Assembly (NCBI GenBank): GCA_023416335.1
Contig: JAEZHY010000053.1
Coordinates: forward strand, 49,546-113,545
Length of the DNA stretch: 64,000 nucleotides
Direction: 5' to 3'
Origin: Pseudomonadota bacterium
Lineage (GTDB): Bacteria; Desulfobacterota; Syntrophobacteria; Syntrophobacterales; Syntrophobacteraceae
This document shows, in pieces, positions 19,008-40,921 of this stretch (the stretch's first letter is position 1; each line of letters begins with the position of its first letter). The translations under genes were made by a program, and so were the position numbers. The notes under the pieces were generated by a model. The model made no database searches, was not told the DNA's origin, and saw only the letters and a list, made by a program, of their open reading frames with translations.

Positions 19008-20054
19008 CTAGGAGAGTTCGATCACGCCTTCGGATGCACCGGTCGCAAGGCCGATGATCGCGGCATCCGGGACACCCTGCGCTTTGAGGGATTGCTCGAG
19101 TTCCGCGGCTCGCTCTTCGGGAAGGGAAATGATCAGGCCGCCCGAGGTTTGCGCGTCGGCGAGGATATCCAGGAGCATGGGATCGATCGGTTTTGCATGC
19201 ACGATCTGGTGGGAGCAGAAGTTGCGGTTGGCGAAGCTCCCGGCGGGCATGAGGCCCATTTGCACATAATCGAGGACTTCGGGAAGGAGCGGGACCTTTT
19301 CCGGAAACAGGGCTATTTTGACCTTACTTCCCGCTGCCATTTCCAGGATGTGGCCGAGAAGCCCGAACCCGGTCACATCGGTGCAGGCGTTCACGGGGAA
19401 GGCCGACATAACCTCGGCGGTTTTCCTGTTCAGGGTTGCCATGGATTCGACGGCACGCCTCCGGGCTTCCTGCGAAGCGAGGCCGGCTTTCATTGCAGTG
19501 GCCAAAATTCCGGTACCGAGGGGTTTTGTCAATATGAGGGCATCGCCGGGCTTCACTCCCGAGTTCGTGAGCACCCGGGCGGGGTGCACCACCCCGGTCA
19601 CAGACAGTCCGAATTTGATCTCCGGGTCCTCGACGCTGTGGCCTCCGATCAGTACCGCCCCGGCTTCGTGAACCTTCTCCAGACCTCCCCGGAGAATTTC
19701 CTTCAGGATCCCCTTGTCCATGGTTTTTACAGGGAAACAGACGACGTTCATGGCCGTAAGAGGCCGTCCTCCCATGGCGTAAACGTCACTCAGGGAATTG
19801 GCCGCCGCGATCCGTCCGAAATCGTAGGGGTCGTTCACAACCGGGGTAATGAAATCGACCGTCTGGACAAGGGCGACGTCGTTGTTCAGGCGGTATACTC
19901 CGGCGTCGTCCGAGGTCTCCCTCCCGACGAGAAGGTTGGGGTCGGCTTCAAGAGGTAAAGATTCCAGAATGTCGGCTAAGTCTCCCGGACCGATTTTGGC
20001 AGCTCAGCCGGCAGCACTGACCGTCTTGGTCAGTTCAATGCGGGAAGAGGTCAT
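19008..20054 (-). CDS. selD: Selenide, water dikinase (selenophosphate synthetase), selenocysteine-containing
   Basis: SelD makes selenophosphate from selenide and ATP, the donor for selenocysteine and selenouridine. The gene starts at ATG 20054 behind GGGGGAAAG. It reads through an in-frame TGA at codon 17 (20004-20006) in the context SAAG-U-AAKIGPG, exactly the active-site position held by Cys or Sec in SelD. Lys20 follows as in the family. Beyond this point the 348-residue protein is complete, with RETSDDAGVYRLNNDVALVQ, DVYAMGGRP, LIGGHSVEDPEIKFGLSVTG, TKPLGTG and FANR motifs. A caller that treats TGA as stop would report only 276 residues from 19838. It lies 75 bases after yedF in the same direction. 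A short hairpin (19979-19991) may serve as SECIS, but the fold is weak by eye. Confidence 0.93.
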
Positions 20055-20129: not shown

Positions 20130-20738
20130 TCACGTCAGGCTGATCACTTTGTCCGCCAGTTGCAGGGCGGTTACGATATCCAGCATGTTGGTCGTTTCGC
20201 CCACCTGCTTCTTCTCAAGGAGCCTGAAATGGTTGAGGCAAGTGCCGCATACCATTACAGTAGTCCCGGCGGTTTCAAGCGCCTTGAGCGCAGGAACGCT
20301 ATCGGACCCTTCGGCGGTGAGTTTGACGCCTCCGTTGAGGAAGATCACCCGCCACAGCTCGGGTCCCATTTCTTTCAACGTGCCGATAAAATTAAATATA
20401 AGTTTTCCGCCGAGAGTGTCGTCCCCGGTTCCCAGGCGGTCGGTTCCGATGAGCACGGCTATCTTTCGCTCCCCACCCGGTATGACGGCTTCCTGCATGA
20501 CCTCGCATTCGGCGGGAGATTGGGTCCTGGTACCCGTCACCTCAAAATTCTCCCCCTGCTCGGAAATGCTCACCTCGTAGCCCATCCGGGAAAGAAAGCG
20601 GCCCACATTTTCCTTTGCGGCGGCATTGTCCACCAAAACACTCAGCTTGCCGACCCCACCGCGATCCACCAGCTCTTTTGCCCGCAGGACCGGATTGGGA
20701 CATGCCAGACCGCGGCAATCCAGTTTCTCCTCGACCAT
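20130..20738 (-). CDS. yedF: Selenium metabolism protein YedF (TusA + DsrE-like fusion)
   Basis: The 202-residue protein has an N-terminal TusA/SirA-like domain (about residues 1-75) with the conserved LDCRGLACPNPV motif. A C-terminal DsrE/F-like domain (about 95-200) follows and contains CGTCLNHF, which holds the cysteines of this subfamily. This domain pair is found almost only in selenium-using bacteria, commonly next to selD. It is thought to carry sulfur or selenium as a persulfide or perselenide to SelD; this is not proven. It lies directly upstream of selD on the same strand, supporting an operon. Confidence 0.92.
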   Translation of the reverse strand: MVEEKLDCRGLACPNPVLRAKELVDRGGVGKLSVLVDNAAAKENVGRFLSRMGYEVSISEQGENFEVTGTRTQSPAECEVMQEAVIPGGERKIAVLIGTDRLGTGDDTLGGKLIFNFIGTLKEMGPELWRVIFLNGGVKLTAEGSDSVPALKALETAGTTVMVCGTCLNHFRLLEKKQVGETTNMLDIVTALQLADKVISLT

Positions 20739-23788: not shown

Positions 23789-23893
23789 GGATTCTTTTCG
23801 GCCCGAGTATTAATTTCAGGCCGAAAGCGGATGGAGCGTTACAATTTACTTTAGATACTAATCATATAAGAAAAGATGAGGAGGTTCCGAAAA

Positions 23894-25522
23894 ATGTTTT
23901 GTTACCAATGCGAACAGACGGCGAAGGGCGAAGGTTGCACCAAAATCGGAGTATGCGGAAAGCAGCCCGAAGTGGCAGCGCTGCAGGACCTCCTGGTATA
24001 CGCTCTCCAGGGGCTGTCGCTCTACGCGACGGAAGCCCGCAAATTGGGAATAACAGACAGAGAGGCCAATGTATTTACCTGTGAAGCCCTCTTTTCGACC
24101 CTGACGAACGTCAATTTCGATCAGAAATATTTCCTCGAAACCATCCCGCGGGCGGTAAAGCTGCGCGAGAGGCTTCGTGAGAAGGTGGCGGCGGCGGGCG
24201 GGAAACCCGGTTTTGCGTCCCCGGCGGCTACTTTCGAGCCTGAATCGACCCTGGACGGCCTCCTTGCCCAGGCTGCGACCGTCGGCCTGCAAGCCGATCC
24301 TGACGAAAACGCCGATATTCGTTCCCTCAGGCATACAGTCCTGTTCGGACTGAAAGGCATTGCGGCCTACACAGACCACGCGCAGATCCTTGGCCAGGAA
24401 GACGATGCCGTTTACGGATTCGTCCAGGAAGCGCTGGCAGCCCTGACCGGGAAGGACCTGGGGGCGAACGAGCTGATTGGGCTCGTTTTGAAGACCGGCG
24501 AAACGAACCTCAGGGCTATGGAATTGCTCGATGCCGCAAACACCGGCACCTACGGACATCCCGTTCCGACGTCTGTACCGCTCGGGCACAAGAAAGGCAA
24601 AGCCATACTCATTTCGGGCCATGACCTGAAAGACCTGGAGTTCCTGCTGAAGCAGACCGAGGGCAAGGGCATCAATATTTACACGCACGGTGAAATGCTC
24701 CCCACTCACGGCTATCCGCAGCTGAAAAAATACCCCCACTTCTATGGACACTACGGAACGGCATGGCAGAACCAGCAGAAAGAGTTCCCGAACTTCCCCG
24801 GTTCTATTCTCATGACCACCAACTGCATCCAGAGGCCCGCACAGGTATACGGCGAGAATATATTTACCTGCGGATGCGTAGGATGGCCGGGCGTGACCCA
24901 CATCGAAAACCGCAACTTTGAGCCCGTCATCAGGAAGGCGCTCGAAATGCCCGGTTTTACAGAAGACTCCAACGGCAAGAATGTCATGGTCGGTTTTGCG
25001 CGGAATACGGTAATGAGCGTTGCCGATAAAGTGATCGAAGCCGTAAAGGGCAAGAAGATCCGGCACTTTTTCCTGGTGGCCGGCTGCGACGGCGCAAAAC
25101 CCGGACGCAACTACTACACGGAATTTGTCGAAAAGGTCCCCGAGGACTGTGTGGTTCTGACGCTGGCCTGTGGAAAATACCGTTTCTTCGACAAGGACCT
25201 TGGAACGATCGGCGGGCTCCCGCGCCTGATGGATGTCGGCCAGTGCAACGACGCCTATTCGGCAATCCAGATTGCAGTGGCCCTGGCAAAGGCGTTCAAC
25301 GTCGGAGTCAACGAACTGCCGCTCTCGCTCATCCTCTCCTGGTATGAACAGAAGGCAGTCGCGATCCTGCTGACCCTGTTCCACCTCGGCATCAAGAACA
25401 TCCGGCTCGGGCCGTCTCTGCCGGCATTTGTCAGCCCGGGCGTTCTGGACGTACTGGTGAAGAACTTCGAGATCAAACCGATCACGACCCCGGACGAGGA
25501 CCTGAAAGCGATCCTGGGTTAA
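23894..25522 (+). CDS. hcp: Hybrid-cluster protein (hydroxylamine / S-nitrosylation-linked reductase), class I
   Basis: The 542-residue protein starts with CYQCEQTAKGEGC and ends the cluster motif with IGVCG. The spacing CX2CX8CX5C is that of strict anaerobes rather than the enterobacterial type. Ligands of the hybrid Fe-S-O cluster are present: His and Glu in SGHDLKDLEFLL and YTHGEMLPTHGYP, cysteines in IFTCGCVGWPG, GCDGAKPGRNYY and LACGKYRF, and the motif RLMDVGQCNDAYSA. Hcp reduces nitric oxide and hydroxylamine in anaerobic nitrosative stress and acts in the cytoplasm. GAGGAGG lies nine bases before the ATG at 23894. It heads an operon with a zinc-ribbon protein and a ferredoxin. Confidence 0.95.
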   Translation: MFCYQCEQTAKGEGCTKIGVCGKQPEVAALQDLLVYALQGLSLYATEARKLGITDREANVFTCEALFSTLTNVNFDQKYFLETIPRAVKLRERLREKVAAAGGKPGFASPAATFEPESTLDGLLAQAATVGLQADPDENADIRSLRHTVLFGLKGIAAYTDHAQILGQEDDAVYGFVQEALAALTGKDLGANELIGLVLKTGETNLRAMELLDAANTGTYGHPVPTSVPLGHKKGKAILISGHDLKDLEFLLKQTEGKGINIYTHGEMLPTHGYPQLKKYPHFYGHYGTAWQNQQKEFPNFPGSILMTTNCIQRPAQVYGENIFTCGCVGWPGVTHIENRNFEPVIRKALEMPGFTEDSNGKNVMVGFARNTVMSVADKVIEAVKGKKIRHFFLVAGCDGAKPGRNYYTEFVEKVPEDCVVLTLACGKYRFFDKDLGTIGGLPRLMDVGQCNDAYSAIQIAVALAKAFNVGVNELPLSLILSWYEQKAVAILLTLFHLGIKNIRLGPSLPAFVSPGVLDVLVKNFEIKPITTPDEDLKAILG

Positions 25523-25535
25523 TCGTATGCTTGAA

Positions 25536-25570
25536 GGTTGGTGGGCACGGTCTCCGTGCTCATCAACCCG
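25536..25570. promoter_or_regulatory. Strong hairpin inside the hcp operon
   Basis: The RNA would fold GGTTGGTGGGCACGG with CCGTGCTCATCAACC around a three-base loop: 15 pairs, two of them G-U. No U-tract follows, so it is more likely an mRNA-stabilising or processing element at the 3' end of hcp than a terminator. The centre resembles the A-type repeat. Confidence 0.6.
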
Positions 25571-25590
25571 AATGAAAGAAGGAAAGTTCC

Positions 25591-26289
25591 ATGAAATGCC
25601 CTGGCCAGGACAGCCGGTTCTGGGGACCCGAAGCCATCTTCGACGCGCGCTGCCCCAATTGCGGGGGGCCGGTCGAATTCTTCAAGGACGAGAGTTCCAG
25701 GAAGTGCCGCAAGTGCGGCTACAGGGTTCTCAATCCCAAGATGGATTTCGGCTGCGCCGCATATTGCAAGTTCGCGACCCAGTGCCTGGGAGACTTGCCT
25801 CCCGAGCTTCTCGCCAAAAGGGCCGATCTGCTGAAGGACAGGGTTGCCGCGGCGGTCAAGATGCATCTCGGCCGCGACTTCAAACGAATCGGGCGGGCAC
25901 TCAAGGTCGCCGAACATGTTCAGACAATTGGCCGGGCAGAGGATGCAGATCCGGCCATAGCGACTCTTTCCGCGTATCTTTCGATGATCGCGGACGGAAC
26001 CGACGAGGGCGAAACGGCTGCCGGGAACATTCTTTCCAACGCCGGTGCTCCGCCCGACATTATCGCGGAGGTGCTCTCGACGCTGCGAAGCCTGCACAAG
26101 CCTGAGGAAGTAAGCGCGTCTGCCAATTCCAGAAGCGTTCTCGATGCGTACAGGGTTGCAGAGCTGGAGGAGAGAGCGAAAAGAGCAGCGGGTGCAGCGG
26201 ACGTTGGTGAGGCGGTCGAAAGTCTGCTCACGGAATCGGGCAGGGAGACCGCGCGCCGGGTGTTGAGCGAAATCGCGGACAATTCATAG
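25591..26289 (+). CDS. Zinc-ribbon protein with HD-like helical domain, hcp-associated
   Basis: The 232-residue protein starts CPGQDSRFWGPEAIFDARCP and has two CxxC pairs (CPNCGG, CRKCGY), then CAAYCKFATQC, consistent with a zinc ribbon over about residues 1-65. An alpha-helical stretch follows (about 75-175) containing GRALKVAEHVQTIG and ADPAIATLSAYLSMIADG. Its arrangement recalls HD-domain phosphohydrolases, but the metal-binding HD pair is not visible, so it may be inactive. Proteins of this kind often accompany hcp in sulfate reducers. It lies 68 bases after hcp. Its exact role is unknown; a protein-stabilising or regulatory task is possible. Confidence 0.75.
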   Translation: MKCPGQDSRFWGPEAIFDARCPNCGGPVEFFKDESSRKCRKCGYRVLNPKMDFGCAAYCKFATQCLGDLPPELLAKRADLLKDRVAAAVKMHLGRDFKRIGRALKVAEHVQTIGRAEDADPAIATLSAYLSMIADGTDEGETAAGNILSNAGAPPDIIAEVLSTLRSLHKPEEVSASANSRSVLDAYRVAELEERAKRAAGAADVGEAVESLLTESGRETARRVLSEIADNS

Positions 26290-26341
26290 GGCGAGAGTAG
26301 TTACTTTATGTGGATCGTGGACTCGATCCGGAGAAAAGAAA

Positions 26342-27109
26342 ATGGCAAAGATTCGGAAGATTGTCGAAATAGACGAGGAATTGTGCGACGGCTGCGGCAT
26401 GTGCGCAATCGCATGCGCCGAGGGAGCACTCGAGATAAAAGACGGAAAAGCGCGCCTGATCAAGGAATCCTATTGCGACGGACTGGGAGCATGCCTCTCA
26501 GGGTGTCCGCAGGGTGCGGTGCGGGTGATCGAGAGGGAGGCCGACGAATTCGACCCGGAAGCGGTCGAAGAGCATCTCGAAGCACAGAAACAAGCGGAGC
26601 CCGCGAAGACGCCCGCGGAAGAGTTCAAGTCCGCTTGCGGGTGCCCGTCGAGCCGGATCCAGACCTTTATCGGCGGTCCGCCTTCCTCTGCGAAGTCGAA
26701 GTCCGTGGAGGTGAGCGAGTCCGATTCGGAACTCACACACTGGCCTATACAGATCAGGCTCGTTCCTCCGAACGCCCCGTTCCTCAAGGACGCCGACCTC
26801 CTGGTCGTATCCGATTGCGCGCCGGTTGCCTATCCCAATTTCCACGGCAAGTTCGTCCGTGGAAAGGCGGTTCTTCTCGGCTGTCCCAAATTCGACAATT
26901 CTCAGGAATACGTTCAGAAATTCGCCCAGATCTTCCGCACGGCAGGTATCCGGAGCGTGACCGTAGTCGATATGGAAGTTCCCTGCTGCTCGGCGATGCC
27001 CGCAATTGTCCGTAAAGCAATGCAGGAAGCGGGAAAAGAAGTTCCGCTGGAAGAAGTGGTCATCAGTGTGCGGGGTGAGATTTTGCGGCGGAAAGAAAAC
27101 GCGGCGTGA
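26342..27109 (+). CDS. Ferredoxin-type 4Fe-4S protein, hcp-associated
   Basis: This 255-residue protein begins with two iron-sulfur cluster motifs: CDGCGMCAIACAEGAL (residues 15-30) and CDGLGACLSGCPQGAV (about 44-59). The second lacks one regular cysteine spacing (CX5CX3C). A Glu/Lys-rich linker with a CGCP motif follows. The C-terminal half contains further cysteines (VSDCAPVAYPNFHGKF, LLGCPKFDN and VPCCSAMPAIV), as found in dedicated Hcp electron donors of sulfate reducers. It is 52 bases after the zinc-ribbon gene. It probably delivers electrons to Hcp in the cytoplasm; this is inferred from the operon. Confidence 0.85.
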   Translation: MAKIRKIVEIDEELCDGCGMCAIACAEGALEIKDGKARLIKESYCDGLGACLSGCPQGAVRVIEREADEFDPEAVEEHLEAQKQAEPAKTPAEEFKSACGCPSSRIQTFIGGPPSSAKSKSVEVSESDSELTHWPIQIRLVPPNAPFLKDADLLVVSDCAPVAYPNFHGKFVRGKAVLLGCPKFDNSQEYVQKFAQIFRTAGIRSVTVVDMEVPCCSAMPAIVRKAMQEAGKEVPLEEVVISVRGEILRRKENAA

Positions 27110-34768: not shown

Positions 34769-34978
34769 ATGAATAAAGAGCAGAAAGTCAACAATAACTT
34801 AAAGGCCGTTGAAAACGCCATCGCCCAACAGCGTCTTGAGGGATTGGAAGTCCCGCCGGAGATTGTCGAAGAAATGAACCGGGCCGCCAGAGGTGAGATT
34901 GAGATTGAGGAAGGCATCCGCAATACAATCCGCAGGTTCACGAATGGCAAAGTACGAGGGGAACGACCATTACCTTGA
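34769..34978 (+). CDS. VbhA-like antitoxin of a Fic toxin
   Basis: The 69-residue, highly charged helical protein ends in RRFTNGKVRGERPLP. It lies directly before and overlaps the fic gene by 35 bases, as class I Fic antitoxins do. Class I antitoxins block the Fic ATP site with an inhibitory motif S/TxxxE(G/N). Here the matching segment reads QQRLEG, so Gln occupies the Ser/Thr position. The later GEIEIEEGI segment also matches VbhA-like helices. GGAGG precedes the ATG by about seven bases. Base composition is visibly more AT-rich than that of the neighbours, as expected for a mobile toxin-antitoxin module. Confidence 0.7.
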   Translation: MNKEQKVNNNLKAVENAIAQQRLEGLEVPPEIVEEMNRAARGEIEIEEGIRNTIRRFTNGKVRGERPLP

Positions 34979-35555
34979 TGCCGTAACCGGGGTTCTTAAG
35001 AACAAACTGGGCATCAGGGATGAGGAAGAACTCAATAAGGCAGAGGCCTCTTTGGTCGCTTGGAGAAGTTTTCAACTTTTCCAAACACCGATAAAGGGAC
35101 ATTTTGATCTTGCTCATTTGAGGGCTATTCACAGGCACTTATTCGGGGATGTATATGAATGGGCCGGTGAACTTCGGGACATCGATCTTGCCAAGGGCAA
35201 CAGCTATTTTGCCAATCACACGTACATTGTCGAAGCGGCGAAACCCATTTTTGAAAGACCAGCTCAAGAAAGCCACCTTCAAGGATTGCCTTCCGATTCA
35301 TTCAGCCAACGTGCAGCTCATTTTCTTGGAGAGATCAATGCACTGCATCCGTTTCGTGAGGGCAACGGCAGAGCGCAACGCGAATTCATCAACCATCTGG
35401 CTTACAGAAATGGCTATTTCATCGAATGGAAAAACGTTGGTCAAGCCGAAATGATTCAGGCCGCAATTGACTCATTTCAGCAAGGCGATAACACAAAATT
35501 TGCTTCTTTCATCCGGGACAGTCTTCGTGAACTCCCAGCTTCCACCCCTCAGTGA
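34944..35555 (+). CDS. fic: Fic-domain AMPylating toxin
   Basis: The 203-residue protein has the complete Fic motif HPFREGNGRAQR at residues 135-146 (HxFx[D/E]GNGRxxR), and the upstream Fic core with FDLAHLRAIHRHLFGDVYEWAG. Fic proteins transfer AMP from ATP to hydroxyl side chains of target proteins. His135 and the anion-hole residues are intact, so the enzyme should be active if not inhibited. The start at 34944 lies within the antitoxin gene in another frame. A longer frame to 34893 is less likely. Together with the antitoxin it forms a toxin-antitoxin pair, AT-richer than the flanks. Confidence 0.9.
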   Translation: MAKYEGNDHYLDAVTGVLKNKLGIRDEEELNKAEASLVAWRSFQLFQTPIKGHFDLAHLRAIHRHLFGDVYEWAGELRDIDLAKGNSYFANHTYIVEAAKPIFERPAQESHLQGLPSDSFSQRAAHFLGEINALHPFREGNGRAQREFINHLAYRNGYFIEWKNVGQAEMIQAAIDSFQQGDNTKFASFIRDSLRELPASTPQ

Positions 35556-35805: not shown

Positions 35806-36342
35806 ATGAAAGGGATTGTAAAAGGGGTGCTGCTTTCAGCTTTGGTACTCAGTGTTGCGCTGACCGGATGTTCCCGGAAGGGCGGCGAGACCGAGGCGGC
35901 CAAGGCGATGGCAATCATGAACCCGACTGAAGGAAGCAAGGTCAAAGGTGTTGTAAGCTTTGCAAAAGAGGGTGGAGGTGTGCGCATTATTGCCGACATC
36001 CAGGGCCTCGCACCCGGGCCTCATGGGTTCCACATCCACGAATTCGGAGACTGCAGTTCTCCTGACGCCGCCTCGGCCGGCGGTCACTTCAACCCCGGCG
36101 ATATGCCTCACGCAGCCCCCGGAGCCGACAAGCGCCATGCGGGAGACCTCGGGAACATCGAAGCGGACAAGAACGGCCACGCCAGACTTGAAGTTACCGA
36201 TAACAAGATCAGCTTTTCCGGGCCGAACTCTATAATCGGCCGCTCGATAATAGTCCATGCGCAGGCTGACGATTATAAGAGCCAGCCGACTGGGAATTCG
36301 GGCGCCCGAGTCGCATGTGGCGTCATCGGTATAGCAAAATAA
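35806..36342 (+). CDS. sodC: Copper/zinc superoxide dismutase, lipoprotein form
   Basis: The 178-residue protein starts with a lipoprotein signal (MKGIVKGVLLSALVLSVALTGC, lipobox at about 19-22), so it is anchored in the envelope. The SodC core has the Cu/Zn ligands in HGFHIHEFGDC, GGHFNP and HAGDLGN, and the active-site arginine in NSGARVACGVIG, with the paired cysteines for the intrachain disulfide. The Asp zinc ligand is in the NIEADKNG region. The enzyme removes periplasmic superoxide, an oxygen-defence trait that is useful to an aerotolerant anaerobe. AGGAGGAG lies five bases before the ATG. Confidence 0.93.
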   Translation: MKGIVKGVLLSALVLSVALTGCSRKGGETEAAKAMAIMNPTEGSKVKGVVSFAKEGGGVRIIADIQGLAPGPHGFHIHEFGDCSSPDAASAGGHFNPGDMPHAAPGADKRHAGDLGNIEADKNGHARLEVTDNKISFSGPNSIIGRSIIVHAQADDYKSQPTGNSGARVACGVIGIAK

Positions 36343-36993: not shown

Positions 36994-37494
36994 TCACTGA
37001 TTCACTCCGCCCTTGTTTGCAAAAGCCAATTCCGTGGCCTGCAAATGGAATTCCTGCATCTTCAGGAGCATTTCCTCGGATTGGTCTTTTGCTGTCCTGA
37101 AGTCGATTCCATCGAATCGCGGATCGTCCGAGCGAAACGCTTCCATTGCTCTCCACATGCCTGCCTGGGCCTGGAGCCCCGCGAGGAGGGTCTCCAACTC
37201 CACTACCCGAGAAAGATCGGAATAGCGAAATAAAGCGTTGTTGAGCTTTAACCGGCCTACCTTTTCCAGTGCCCATCCGCCCAGCTTCTTGGCGACGGAT
37301 TCCGTTCCGCCGAGTCGCCTTATCAGCTTGCGGATGCGAACCTGTTCTTCCCGCAGAACCAGAAGAAGGTGTTCGAGAAATTTCCCAAGTTCCGAGTTCC
37401 TGTTGTTCGAAAGACATCTGTGGGTCAATTCGATACCTGCGACGGATGCGCCGAGATGGTCGTTGAGATAGGTGAGCAGATTTTCGTCCTGCAT
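36994..37494 (-). CDS. Helical (ferritin-like?) hypothetical protein
   Basis: The 166-residue protein is fully alpha-helical by pattern. It begins with the motif LTYLNDHLGASVAGIELTHR, followed by three more amphipathic helices. Such proteins with a TYLNDH start recur in bacterial genomes as uncharacterised four-helix-bundle proteins. They resemble ferritin-like folds, but a clear di-iron ExxH pair is not evident. GGGGGAGAA precedes the start. It lies upstream of a terminator of a separate gene, so it is not part of an operon with the HesB-like gene. Function unknown. Confidence 0.75.
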   Translation of the reverse strand: MQDENLLTYLNDHLGASVAGIELTHRCLSNNRNSELGKFLEHLLLVLREEQVRIRKLIRRLGGTESVAKKLGGWALEKVGRLKLNNALFRYSDLSRVVELETLLAGLQAQAGMWRAMEAFRSDDPRFDGIDFRTAKDQSEEMLLKMQEFHLQATELAFANKGGVNQ

Positions 37495-37611: not shown

Positions 37612-37637
37612 AAAAAACGGGGACCGGAGTCCCCGCA
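37612..37637 (-). terminator. Rho-independent terminator of the HesB-like gene
   Basis: Read on the minus strand, a CGGGGAC/GTCCCCG hairpin with a four-base loop is followed by a run of six T residues. It lies 22 bases past the stop of the HesB-like selenoprotein gene. Confidence 0.85.
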
Positions 37638-37656: not shown

Positions 37657-37977
37657 TCAACAGCTGCAGGAAGGAGAACATCCGCCCCCGCCGCCGCCGA
37701 TCGGCATTTCGGAAGTCACACGGAAACCGGATCCCATTCCGTAGGAAACGTAATCTACGGTGACGTCCTTGGTTTTCTCATGCAGTTCTTTGTCGATCAG
37801 CATGGTGAAGCCGTTGATCTTGTATACATCGTCCGTTTCTTTAGGTTCGTCCAGAACCATCGCCAGGGATGGGCCCGCTCACCCGCCGGTCTGGAGAAAA
37901 ACTCTGATCGGAGTTATCTCCTTCTCCTTGAAATAGTCTTTCAGTACGGTTTCCGCTTTCTCGGAAATATTGATCAT
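37657..37977 (-). CDS. HesB/IscA-like selenoprotein (Sec at residue 33)
   Basis: The frame starts at ATG 37977 behind AAGGAGA and reads INISEKAETVLKDYF. At codon 33 it meets TGA (37879-37881) in the context FLQTGG-U-AGPSLAMVLDEP. Homologous A-type iron-sulfur carrier proteins have the first conserved cysteine at this place. After the UGA the frame continues for 73 residues with no stop until 37657. It ends in a Gly-run and CSPSCSC, which replaces the usual C-terminal CGCG pair. With UGA as Sec, the protein is 106 residues, the normal family length. A ribosome-binding site and a terminator frame the gene. Selenocysteine-containing HesB-like proteins are a known but rare family; iron-sulfur or selenium transfer is inferred. 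Confidence 0.88.
37857..37872 (-). promoter_or_regulatory. Candidate SECIS hairpin of the HesB-like gene
   Basis: Six bases after the UGA, CCATC pairs with GATGG around a six-base loop CCTGGC. Bacterial SECIS elements sit immediately 3' of the Sec codon with a small stem and a loop that contains G and U. The position fits; the stem is short, so this is tentative. Confidence 0.4.
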
Positions 37978-38393
37978 GAAACCCGTCTCCTTTCAAAATT
38001 TAAGGCCCCGCAATGCGGCACTGACTTCCCGACTTTATGTCCCTGTGATCCGGAACTGGCTCTGCTTGAGCTTGGAATGGAAGTTAACATAATTACTCGA
38101 CCCGGAAAAGACACTATCAAAAAAAGGGATAATTAAAAACAGCAAAGATTGGAAATCCCGATTAATGCGTCAAACCAGTTCGGGTTTCCTGATGCCCCGG
38201 TCTTATCGGTTGACATAAATGCGACTTCTTTCCATACTACCGTAACCTTAGATACTGATTCGCACCATTCCCGCTTCAAACATAGGATTCGGCCGTACTC
38301 CATTTTCAAGCGTTTGCACAACGGAACCGGCGGTCCGAACAATCGATTCACGGCCCGGCCGAATCTACCTTTATATAAAAACGAGGTGAACAG
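37978..38393. other. Divergent promoter region
   Basis: About 415 bases between the HesB-like gene and the UspA gene. The left part is AT-rich with runs of A (CAAAAAAAGGGA). A 72-codon minus-strand frame here lacks support. No repeat was noticed. Confidence 0.45.
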
Positions 38394-39335
38394 ATGAACG
38401 ACTCGCGGAAAAGGGTTCTGCTTGTGGTTGACGGTTCTTACCAGGCTTTCGAGACGGTCAACTATGTCAGCGAGACTTTACCTCCGGGCGAAACACAGAT
38501 CGTACTGCTGCATATCACAAGCAAGGTCCCCGAGGCTTTCTGGGATTTGGAGAAGGACCCGGTCTGGCAGCAGAAGGTAAAAACGGTCCGGGGGTGGGAG
38601 ATACAGCAGGAAAAGAAGATATCCGATTTCATGGACAGGGCTCGACAGGTCTTCAAGAACGCAAACTTTCCCGATTCGGCGGTGAAGGTCGATATACGGG
38701 AGAGGAAAGAGGGCATAGCCCGGGATATCGGTGCGGAATCCCACCGCGGCTACGATGCCGTGATATTGGGGAGAAGGGGGCTGAGCACGATCCAGGACCT
38801 TTCTTTGGGTGGGGTTGCCGGCAAGGTGGTACTGAAGAACACGGATATGGCCGTATGGCTTGTCGGAGGGCGTCCCGATCCCAACGGCATCGTTATTGGA
38901 ATGGATTCGTCAGGCTGGTCGCTCAAAGCCGTTGAACATACCGCGAAAATGATCGAGGGCCAAGGCAAGAAGATAGTGCTGCTCCATGTAGTTCGAAAAT
39001 TGAGTTCCGATCCGGAAGGTCTGGCCGATGCCGGCCTGGTGGAATTTCAACAGCAGCGGGAGGATCGGGCCGCCAGGGAAATCGAGCCCGTTTTTGACAA
39101 AGCGGTGGAAGCGCTGAAAGCCGTTGGCATCCCGGTCGGAGACATATCGATCAAGGTCATTACGGGGGCCGACAGCCGCGCGGGAACGATCCTCGAAGAG
39201 GCGAGGGCCGGCGGATACGGAACAATCGTTGTAGGCAGGCGTGGGCTTTCGACCGTGGAAGAATTCGACATGGGCAGAGTCAGCAACAAACTCGTGCAAG
39301 CGGCAAAAGACAGGGCTCTCTGGGTTATCGGGTAG
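38394..39335 (+). CDS. Tandem universal stress protein (UspA family)
   Basis: The 313-residue protein consists of two UspA domains (about residues 1-155 and 160-313). Each begins with a beta strand and ends with a nucleotide-binding Gly-rich loop: VILGRRGLSTIQDLSLGGVAGKVVLKN in the first and TIVVGRRGLSTVEEFDMGRVSNKLVQ in the second (GRRGLS repeated). Tandem forms behave like internal dimers of UspA. Expression under stress or energy limitation is typical of the family. A GAGGTGA ribosome-binding site precedes the ATG. The stop lies five bases before the convergent murJ stop. Confidence 0.9.
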   Translation: MNDSRKRVLLVVDGSYQAFETVNYVSETLPPGETQIVLLHITSKVPEAFWDLEKDPVWQQKVKTVRGWEIQQEKKISDFMDRARQVFKNANFPDSAVKVDIRERKEGIARDIGAESHRGYDAVILGRRGLSTIQDLSLGGVAGKVVLKNTDMAVWLVGGRPDPNGIVIGMDSSGWSLKAVEHTAKMIEGQGKKIVLLHVVRKLSSDPEGLADAGLVEFQQQREDRAAREIEPVFDKAVEALKAVGIPVGDISIKVITGADSRAGTILEEARAGGYGTIVVGRRGLSTVEEFDMGRVSNKLVQAAKDRALWVIG

Positions 39336-39340
39336 ATCTC

Positions 39341-40921
39341 TCAGCCTGCGGTTCTCCCCCTGAGAAGCCGCCTTCCTGCCGGACCGGTTCTCTCCAGAAA
39401 GGGCCGCGCCAGGTCCGGTACAAAATATCCGGAAAGAACGGCAAAGCATATTCCAAACACCATCCCGCTCGCCCCTATCTGGAAGATTGCCGAAAGGTAG
39501 GGAGCGGCCTCCCTCGCGAACGGATTCAGCAGTCCGGCGCCATAGGCGGGTATGGCCGAAATGATCGAAAGAAACAGGATTTTGGCGGAACCTGCGATCA
39601 AACCGCGGAAAGCCTCCCCGTCCGCTTTTTTCTTCCACCAGAAAGTCAGGGCCGCGCTGTAAAGAAGAATCGACGCAGCGCTTGCCCAGGCGACCCCCGC
39701 GACACCAAACCGTATGGTGAGAAAATAGTAAACGGGAATGGATAGAAGGGTCACAATGCTTCCGAGGACCGCCGGGCTGACCGTGTCGAGCCTGGCGTAG
39801 AAAGCCCGGCCCAGTACCTGCTGGTATCCCCAGAAGGAAACGGCCAGGAGAAGGATCTGCAGAAGTACCGCCGTTCGGGCCGTATCGGGCGGACTGAAGC
39901 GGCCCTGTTCGAATATGAGCCTGATGGTCGGCTCCGAGACGAGGACCATCCATACCGAAAGCGGTATCAGAAGAGTCATGACATTCTGCAGAGCGGCCCG
40001 GATTGTCTTCGCAAACCTCGTAAAATCCTTTTTGACAAAGAGTTCGGCGAGGAACGGATAGGATGCTACCCCGGCCGCCTGGGCCACAACGCTTACCGGA
40101 ACGAGCATAATCCTGCGGGCGTAGTTGAGCCAACTGATCGCTCCGACCCCGGCCAGAGATCCGAAAATCCTGACGAATTGCTCATCCAGCACCGTTATGG
40201 ACTGCCCGATCATGAGCGGCAGCGCGGTGAGAAAATACTTCTTGAGCCCCGGATGAGCAGTTGACCACCTGAGGCTCAGTCCTCCGGACCTCGCGGCAAG
40301 AAGCGGAAGCAGAAAATTCCCCAGAAACGAGCCTCCCAGCACGCCCCAGCAGAACCCTTCCATCCCTCGGCTCCGGAGAAGAACGCCTCCACCGATTATC
40401 GAGAGGTTGTAAACAATGGGAACCAGTGCGGGGACGAAGAACTGTTTGCGCATATAAAGCAGGGCACTGAGGCAGGAGCCGCACAGGAAAAAGACCTGAG
40501 AGGGCAGGATAACCCGCAGGAAGAAAGCCAGGCGCTCCATGGATTCCGTATCGAGTCCGGGAGCCGCCAGACGGGCGAGGGCGGGGGCAAAGATTTCGGC
40601 GCAGAAAGTCAGGGCGCAGATCGAAATGGAGATCCAGAAGAAGACGGTGGAAAAGAAACGCCATCCTTCTTCCCGGTCCTCATCGAAGTATTTTGTCAGA
40701 AAAGGAATGAGCGTTATGGAAAAATAGCCGCCTGCGAGCAGGTAGTTGATGAAATCCGGGATTACGAAAGCGGCAAAGTAAAGATCCGATTCCCTGGTTG
40801 CTCCGAAAAGAACCGAGATTAGTTTGTCCCGGAAAAGCCCCATGAAACGGGACAGCAATATGCCGGTCCCCATTATCAGTGCGGCCAGACCCATCTGGTG
40901 GCGCTTTTGCCAGAATGCCAT
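39341..40921 (-). CDS. murJ: Lipid II flippase MurJ
   Basis: The 526-residue protein has about 13-14 membrane helices. It starts with the MviN signature GTGILLSRFMGLFRDKLISVLFG, followed by the region FNYLLAGGYFSITLIPFL-like text (DFINYLLAGGYFSITLIPFL). Essential charged residues of the central cavity are present in the first helices (Arg in LSRFMGLFRD). It moves lipid-linked peptidoglycan precursors across the inner membrane. Length and helices agree with family members. GGGGAAA precedes the ATG. It is convergent with the UspA gene and does not lie in an operon. Confidence 0.9.
   Translation of the reverse strand: MAFWQKRHQMGLAALIMGTGILLSRFMGLFRDKLISVLFGATRESDLYFAAFVIPDFINYLLAGGYFSITLIPFLTKYFDEDREEGWRFFSTVFFWISISICALTFCAEIFAPALARLAAPGLDTESMERLAFFLRVILPSQVFFLCGSCLSALLYMRKQFFVPALVPIVYNLSIIGGGVLLRSRGMEGFCWGVLGGSFLGNFLLPLLAARSGGLSLRWSTAHPGLKKYFLTALPLMIGQSITVLDEQFVRIFGSLAGVGAISWLNYARRIMLVPVSVVAQAAGVASYPFLAELFVKKDFTRFAKTIRAALQNVMTLLIPLSVWMVLVSEPTIRLIFEQGRFSPPDTARTAVLLQILLLAVSFWGYQQVLGRAFYARLDTVSPAVLGSIVTLLSIPVYYFLTIRFGVAGVAWASAASILLYSAALTFWWKKKADGEAFRGLIAGSAKILFLSIISAIPAYGAGLLNPFAREAAPYLSAIFQIGASGMVFGICFAVLSGYFVPDLARPFLERTGPAGRRLLRGRTAG

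Follow-up and report, generated by a model that had tools for sequence, protein, structure and literature searches.

A HesB/IscA-like selenoprotein gene with a conserved in-frame UGA and its possible place among A-type carriers

On the minus strand of the 64-kb stretch of DNA analysed here (64,000 nucleotides, hereafter the window), a short frame related to the HesB/IscA family runs through a TGA at its codon 33, in the context QTGG-U-AGPSLAM. This locus raises two questions: is the TGA read as selenocysteine (Sec) and, if so, what would a HesB-like protein do with Sec at this position? A preliminary description of the DNA had proposed a HesB/IscA-like selenoprotein with Sec in place of the first conserved Cys, encoded by one gene spanning the UGA. 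The features discussed below are collected in Table 1.

Table 1. Coordinates of the HesB-like gene, its signals and other genes of the window.
Feature	Position	Strand	Remarks
HesB-like selenoprotein gene	37657..37977	-	106 residues, Sec33; stop TGA 37657-37659 included
In-frame TGA, codon 33, predicted to be read as Sec	37879..37881	-	same TGA in 18/22 related loci, Cys in 4/22
Ribosome-binding-like AAGGAGA	37986..37992	-	8 bases 5' of ATG; from sequence
Likely SECIS hairpin GGUUC-UGGAC-GAACC	37844..37858	-	21-35 nt after UGA; comparative pairing
Terminator-like hairpin, then T run	37617..37636	-	1 found, 1.2 expected by chance
ORF after the HesB-like gene, 166 residues	36994..37494	-	no Pfam/NCBIfam match at E 1e-5
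Cu/Zn superoxide dismutase gene	35806..36342	+	
Universal stress protein gene	38394..39335	+	
murJ	39341..40921		
selD	19008..20054	-	TIGR00476 393 bits, cut-off 125; start ATG inferred
yedF, selenium metabolism protein gene, before selD	20130..20738	-	TIGR03527 208.8 bits, cut-off 110

The coding span without its stop (37660-37977) amounts to 106 codons, and the ATG at 37977, the AAGGAGA upstream of it and the frame open through the TGA were found in the sequence as first described. When every TGA of the window was scanned on both strands for coding-like codon usage on both of its sides, the TGA at 37879-37881 was the sole return; the scan missed the internal TGA of selD (see below), meaning that it is specific rather than sensitive. 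Downstream of the gene, the hairpin (37636-37617) and T run that had been called an ideal terminator are indeed present, but one such structure was found where shuffled sequences lead us to expect 1.2, which taken alone is weak evidence.

Looking at codon 33 in 22 related loci, we found TGA in 18 and a Cys codon in the remaining four (L013 and L020-L022). The preliminary description had named a stop codon in homologues, rather than Cys or Sec, as the outcome that would speak against it, and this outcome was absent. On a larger scale, a match to the family profile NF038090 (IscA_HesB_Se) over its cut-off was obtained in 125 of 297 genomes sampled from the phylum of genome G001; among the 150 matches listed, 117 contained one TGA, one contained two and 32 had none. 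If the TGA were a true stop, the locus would be a pseudogene or would consist of two unconnected short ORFs, and this is indeed how automatic annotation treats such genes: out of 114 database relatives, 93 have their start beyond the UGA site and 2 have their end at it, with W entered at the site in 7 and Cys in 12. The HesB-Se family, as we call these TGA-bearing HesB-like proteins, is widely misannotated at UGA. Against a true stop stand the coding-like sequence on both sides and the retention of the TGA, or of Cys, in relatives, two observations that also bear out the claim of a single gene spanning the UGA, as well as a downstream hairpin maintained through paired changes, described below; we consider a true stop extremely improbable.

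The hairpin that had been noticed after the UGA is located within the codons for MVLDEP, and its support comes from comparison. In the first set of 48 Sec genes (the window gene, 18 related loci and 29 of 30 loci of the phylum sample, which are related sequences and not independent events), all five pairs were present in 47 genes and 239 of the 240 pair cells were standard; when one arm was slid by 1-3 nt as a control, the number of standard cells fell to between 17 and 114 of 240. The seven Cys genes of this set behaved differently, with five pairs in only one of them (L013) and pairing in 23 of 35 cells. The first set excluded L020-L022 and also L057, which the search pattern had missed and which was scored in the second set (five of five pairs). 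This second set, which was not used for defining the hairpin, does not include L061, which occupies the place of L049, or the L067 Cys copy, which the pattern did not catch; it gave five pairs in 11/11 Sec genes and 0/7 Cys genes. At the middle pair, 18 genes of the first set have U-A (Val GTT with Glu GAA) and 29 have C-G (Ala GCT with Glu GAG), the one exception being C-A in L017; at the level of sequence, an amino-acid change is matched here by a synonymous change.

Folding of single sequences was less telling: a 56-nt segment of the window folded no better than its shuffles (z 0.38), and of the 19 Sec sequences folded as 48 nt at minimum energy, 16 showed the hairpin and three (the window, L002 and L017) did not. 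The window's own 48-nt fold contained an alternative hairpin, CCAUC/GAUGG, which was set aside and is absent from the majority of the 19. As for L013, a Cys gene that is a close relative, its intact hairpin is perhaps a SECIS remnant; the legend of Figure 4 in PMC1794560 mentions, for a Cys form, the remnant of a SECIS-like structure. Two marks of a bacterial selenoprotein gene, an in-frame UGA at a position where homologues have Sec or Cys and a hairpin shortly downstream that selection has maintained, were both found here, the latter by comparison. Altogether, the comparative data strongly support the reading of the UGA as selenocysteine with the help of the downstream hairpin, and we regard it as almost certain, on sequence grounds, that this is a recoded selenoprotein gene.

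The selenium machinery was searched for in 20 genomes of relatives, of which 17 have the TGA form and the other 3 only Cys forms, and in 14 control genomes. selA was found in 17/17 TGA-form genomes, 0/3 Cys-only genomes and 1/14 controls, and selB in 16/17 (missing from G004), 0/3 and 2/14, respectively. A tRNA-Sec over the Rfam cut-off was detected in 14 of the 17 TGA-form genomes (scores of 59.8-75.4 bits; missing from G014, G015 and G016) and in none of the three Cys-only genomes, with a cut-off that was also reached in 5 of the 14 controls and is therefore not fully specific. A lack of selA, selB and selC, the other result that the preliminary description had said would count against it, is not what the TGA-form relatives show. 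Rfam and ARAGORN searches of the whole 64-kb window returned nothing, that is, no tRNA gene and no selC. The window does carry selD, as previously claimed, with yedF before it (Table 1). selD has itself an in-frame TGA (20004-20006, context SAAG-U-AAK), which makes it a second likely selenoprotein gene in this DNA. The proposal that TGA stands for tryptophan in the host organism, with W written at the site in 7 of the 114 database relatives, receives almost no credence from us, since 7 of 12 long window ORFs checked end in TGA as an ordinary stop, the loci lacking the TGA carry Cys codons and not TGG, and the relatives have the Sec machinery.

We then considered the family to which the protein belongs. 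It scored 121.1 bits against NF038090 (curated cut-off 85), its residues 1-101 aligning on positions 1-100 of the 101 of the profile, the Sec/Cys site included, and 34.2 bits against PF01521 (Fe-S_biosyn; gathering cut-off 26.3). Scores remained under the curated cut-offs for TIGR01911 (HesB_rel_seleno; 49.6 bits, cut-off 66.35) and for TIGR00049, the canonical A-type carrier family (50.9 bits, cut-off 58.8). A structure model built from a 30-sequence alignment had a mean pLDDT of 82.0 and a pTM of 0.69, the tail (residues 95-106) being under 50. Among its best PDB matches were IscA with a [2Fe-2S] cluster (1x0g), IscA (1r94/1s98), SufA (2d2a) and AQ_1857 (1nwb), and a profile search returned the same entries plus HI1723. 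The model and the alignments thus support an A-type carrier fold with a predicted Sec33 at the position of the first ligand of IscA. With the NF038090 score over the cut-off and TGA or Cys at the site in relatives, the original assignment as a HesB/IscA-like selenoprotein stood; judged by its sequence, the gene is an ordinary member of a known selenoprotein family.

Canonical A-type carriers have three Cys ligands, the last two of which lie in a CGC motif. This arrangement is not found in the window protein, which would have Sec33 and, instead of CGC, a Gly run followed by CSPSCSC (C-terminal end, GGGGGGCSPSCSC). The tail had been taken for unusual, a view that we do not retain: CSPSCSC is exact in 4 of the 22 loci (L001, L002, L009 and L012), and an alignment of 30 proteins shows no variation at G99 and C100 and hardly any at C106. 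Sec members that are further removed have ends of the type CGTSCSC, CGSSCSC or CSSGSCGGSCG, and a CGCG end occurs among the aligned rows in the distant Cys-type L020-L022. These alignments show that members of the subfamily commonly combine a Gly run and a Cys-rich end, and the tail is normal there; we gave up the idea that CSPSCSC forms a new metal site, given that relatives share the tail. Sequence and model together support the view that a mobile Gly/Cys tail stands in place of the CGC motif. In L014 (a second copy in the genome of L004) and in L059 (genome G244), the tail runs into a second in-frame TGA (CSCS-TGA and GGGCC-TGA, respectively), for which an ordinary stop seems a simpler reading than a second Sec.

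The distribution of A-type carriers and of Fe-S scaffolds was examined in the same genomes. A U-type Fe-S scaffold domain was present in all 17 TGA-form genomes and SufB/D in 4 of them. PF01521 proved poor for presence or absence, matching 6 of the 17 genomes though all carry the gene, and TIGR00049 was used for that reason. No canonical A-type carrier scored over the TIGR00049 cut-off in these 17 genomes, which are possibly incomplete; the same search picked up the TGA-bearing HesB-Se proteins, which score 30.3-48.0 bits, and would be expected to reveal a canonical carrier. One further hit, in G005 (C164; 53.3 bits), lies below the cut-off and has one TAA inside. In the phylum sample, the TIGR00049 cut-off was reached in 14 of 297 genomes; once G313 is set aside, where the hit is to the TGA-bearing protein, 13 remain. 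A canonical carrier and an NF038090 match occurred together in G108 only (13 versus 125 genomes, n=297), an exclusion for which Fisher's test gives p 0.009 with kinship ignored. Neither was found over its cut-off in 160 of the 297 genomes, meaning that neither the NF038090 protein nor a canonical carrier is indispensable. As far as these searches go, HesB-Se may be the only A-type carrier of the 17 TGA-form genomes, which is possibly a new point. A broader version, put forward tentatively, strikes us as rather unlikely: in much of the phylum, a system built on a U-type scaffold would have HesB-Se as its sole A-type carrier, a selenolate would serve as cluster ligand, and annotation at the UGA would have caused the protein to be overlooked.

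What might the protein do? In the mechanism that we propose, Sec33 would replace the first ligand of IscA and the mobile tail would supply the others; a cluster or iron would be held between the selenolate and the tail cysteines and handed to apo-proteins, and in an anaerobe that has a U-type scaffold and lacks canonical IscA, ErpA or SufA, HesB-Se would play the part of A-type Fe-S carrier. We hold it somewhat more likely than not that Sec is a direct metal or cluster ligand; for the carrier role, the arguments for and against seem to us of equal weight, and identity and carrier mechanism taken as a whole have an even chance of being right. Counting against this mechanism, PMC11097638 mentions, as a result unpublished there, that a mutant disrupted in an archaeal HesB-like selenoprotein fixes nitrogen normally.

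The main rival accepts the selenoprotein and denies the carrier: Sec33 would be a redox selenol cycling with a tail Cys, or the protein would bind soft metals or metalloids. Sec is mostly found in redox sites, according to reviews, and the tail is Cys-rich and mobile. The surroundings can be read the same way, since the genes for Cu/Zn superoxide dismutase and universal stress protein are near, as are their relatives in L002, L007 and L012, and none of the neighbouring ORFs examined was recognised as an Fe-S assembly gene. Set against this, fold and Sec position match those of A-type carriers, and the Sec-type genomes are otherwise devoid of an A-type carrier over the cut-off. We give this rival a serious chance, if somewhat less than an even one.

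More generally, relatives of some flanking genes also occur near the gene in L001, L002, L007, L009 and L012, and the ORF at 36994-37494 keeps its adjoining position in L001 and L009. The window further contains, on the plus strand, a gene for a Fic-domain protein (34893-35555; 60 bits with PF02661; among NCBIfam profiles VbhT matches best, at 232.7 bits where the cut-off is 800) and, at 23876-27109, a hydroxylamine reductase gene (839 bits; hybrid cluster protein), after which come an ORF with no family match and a ferredoxin-like gene. In 14 of the 125 genomes, by a count made by eye among the matches listed, a TGA-bearing and a Cys copy of HesB are adjacent, within about 1.4 kb (genomes G034, G060, G096, G108, G137, G158, G185, G191, G210, G233, G255, G276, G297 and G312; sequences L031-L033, L039, L046, L049 and L062-L069). 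Such pairs could form a heterodimer or a selenium-dependent switch. The window HesB-like gene has no Cys copy as a neighbour, and we did not find tandem Sec/Cys HesB pairs stated in the titles and abstract openings that a search of openly licensed literature returned.

The literature has known HesB-like selenoproteins since 2005 at the latest, and the window gene adds one member. HesB figures among the known selenoproteins of 2005 (PMC1242214), 11 HesB-like selenoproteins are counted, with Syntrophobacter fumaroxidans named and one listed for Desulfovibrio vulgaris (PMC1794560), and the family is tabulated in PMC9312934 and, with the motif UxGP, in PMC13188914. The HesB-like selenoprotein of Methanococcus maripaludis was identified by mutagenesis and 75Se labelling (PMC11097638), and PMC2682760 has A-type carriers as its subject. 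The rarity once claimed for Sec-containing HesB proteins was not borne out, given that the table of bacterial selenoprotein families in PMC5029168 places them sixth by number of organisms (90 proteins, 86 organisms) and given the frequency of NF038090 matches in the phylum sample. The idea of HesB-Se as an only A-type carrier was not found stated in the titles and abstract openings that searches of openly licensed literature returned, and this possible role is the part worth following. With 95 of the 114 database relatives starting after or ending at the UGA, such anaerobes can appear to be without any A-type carrier; if HesB-Se were their sole one, selenium supply would be tied to Fe-S cluster biogenesis, and the protein would be a natural selenolate-ligated cluster carrier.

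Compared with known systems, nothing sets the window protein apart from the NF038090 family, whose profile stops before CSPSCSC, an end that is common to relatives. The HesB-like selenoproteins described in published reports (Syntrophobacter fumaroxidans, Desulfovibrio and Methanococcus; TIGR01911) likewise have Sec in UxGP, and the window protein differs from the TIGR01911 family in scoring under its cut-off. Finally, with respect to IscA, SufA and ErpA (TIGR00049), it would have Sec where they have their first Cys, it lacks CGC at the C-terminus and it scores below the cut-off, but its predicted fold and the position of its first ligand are alike.
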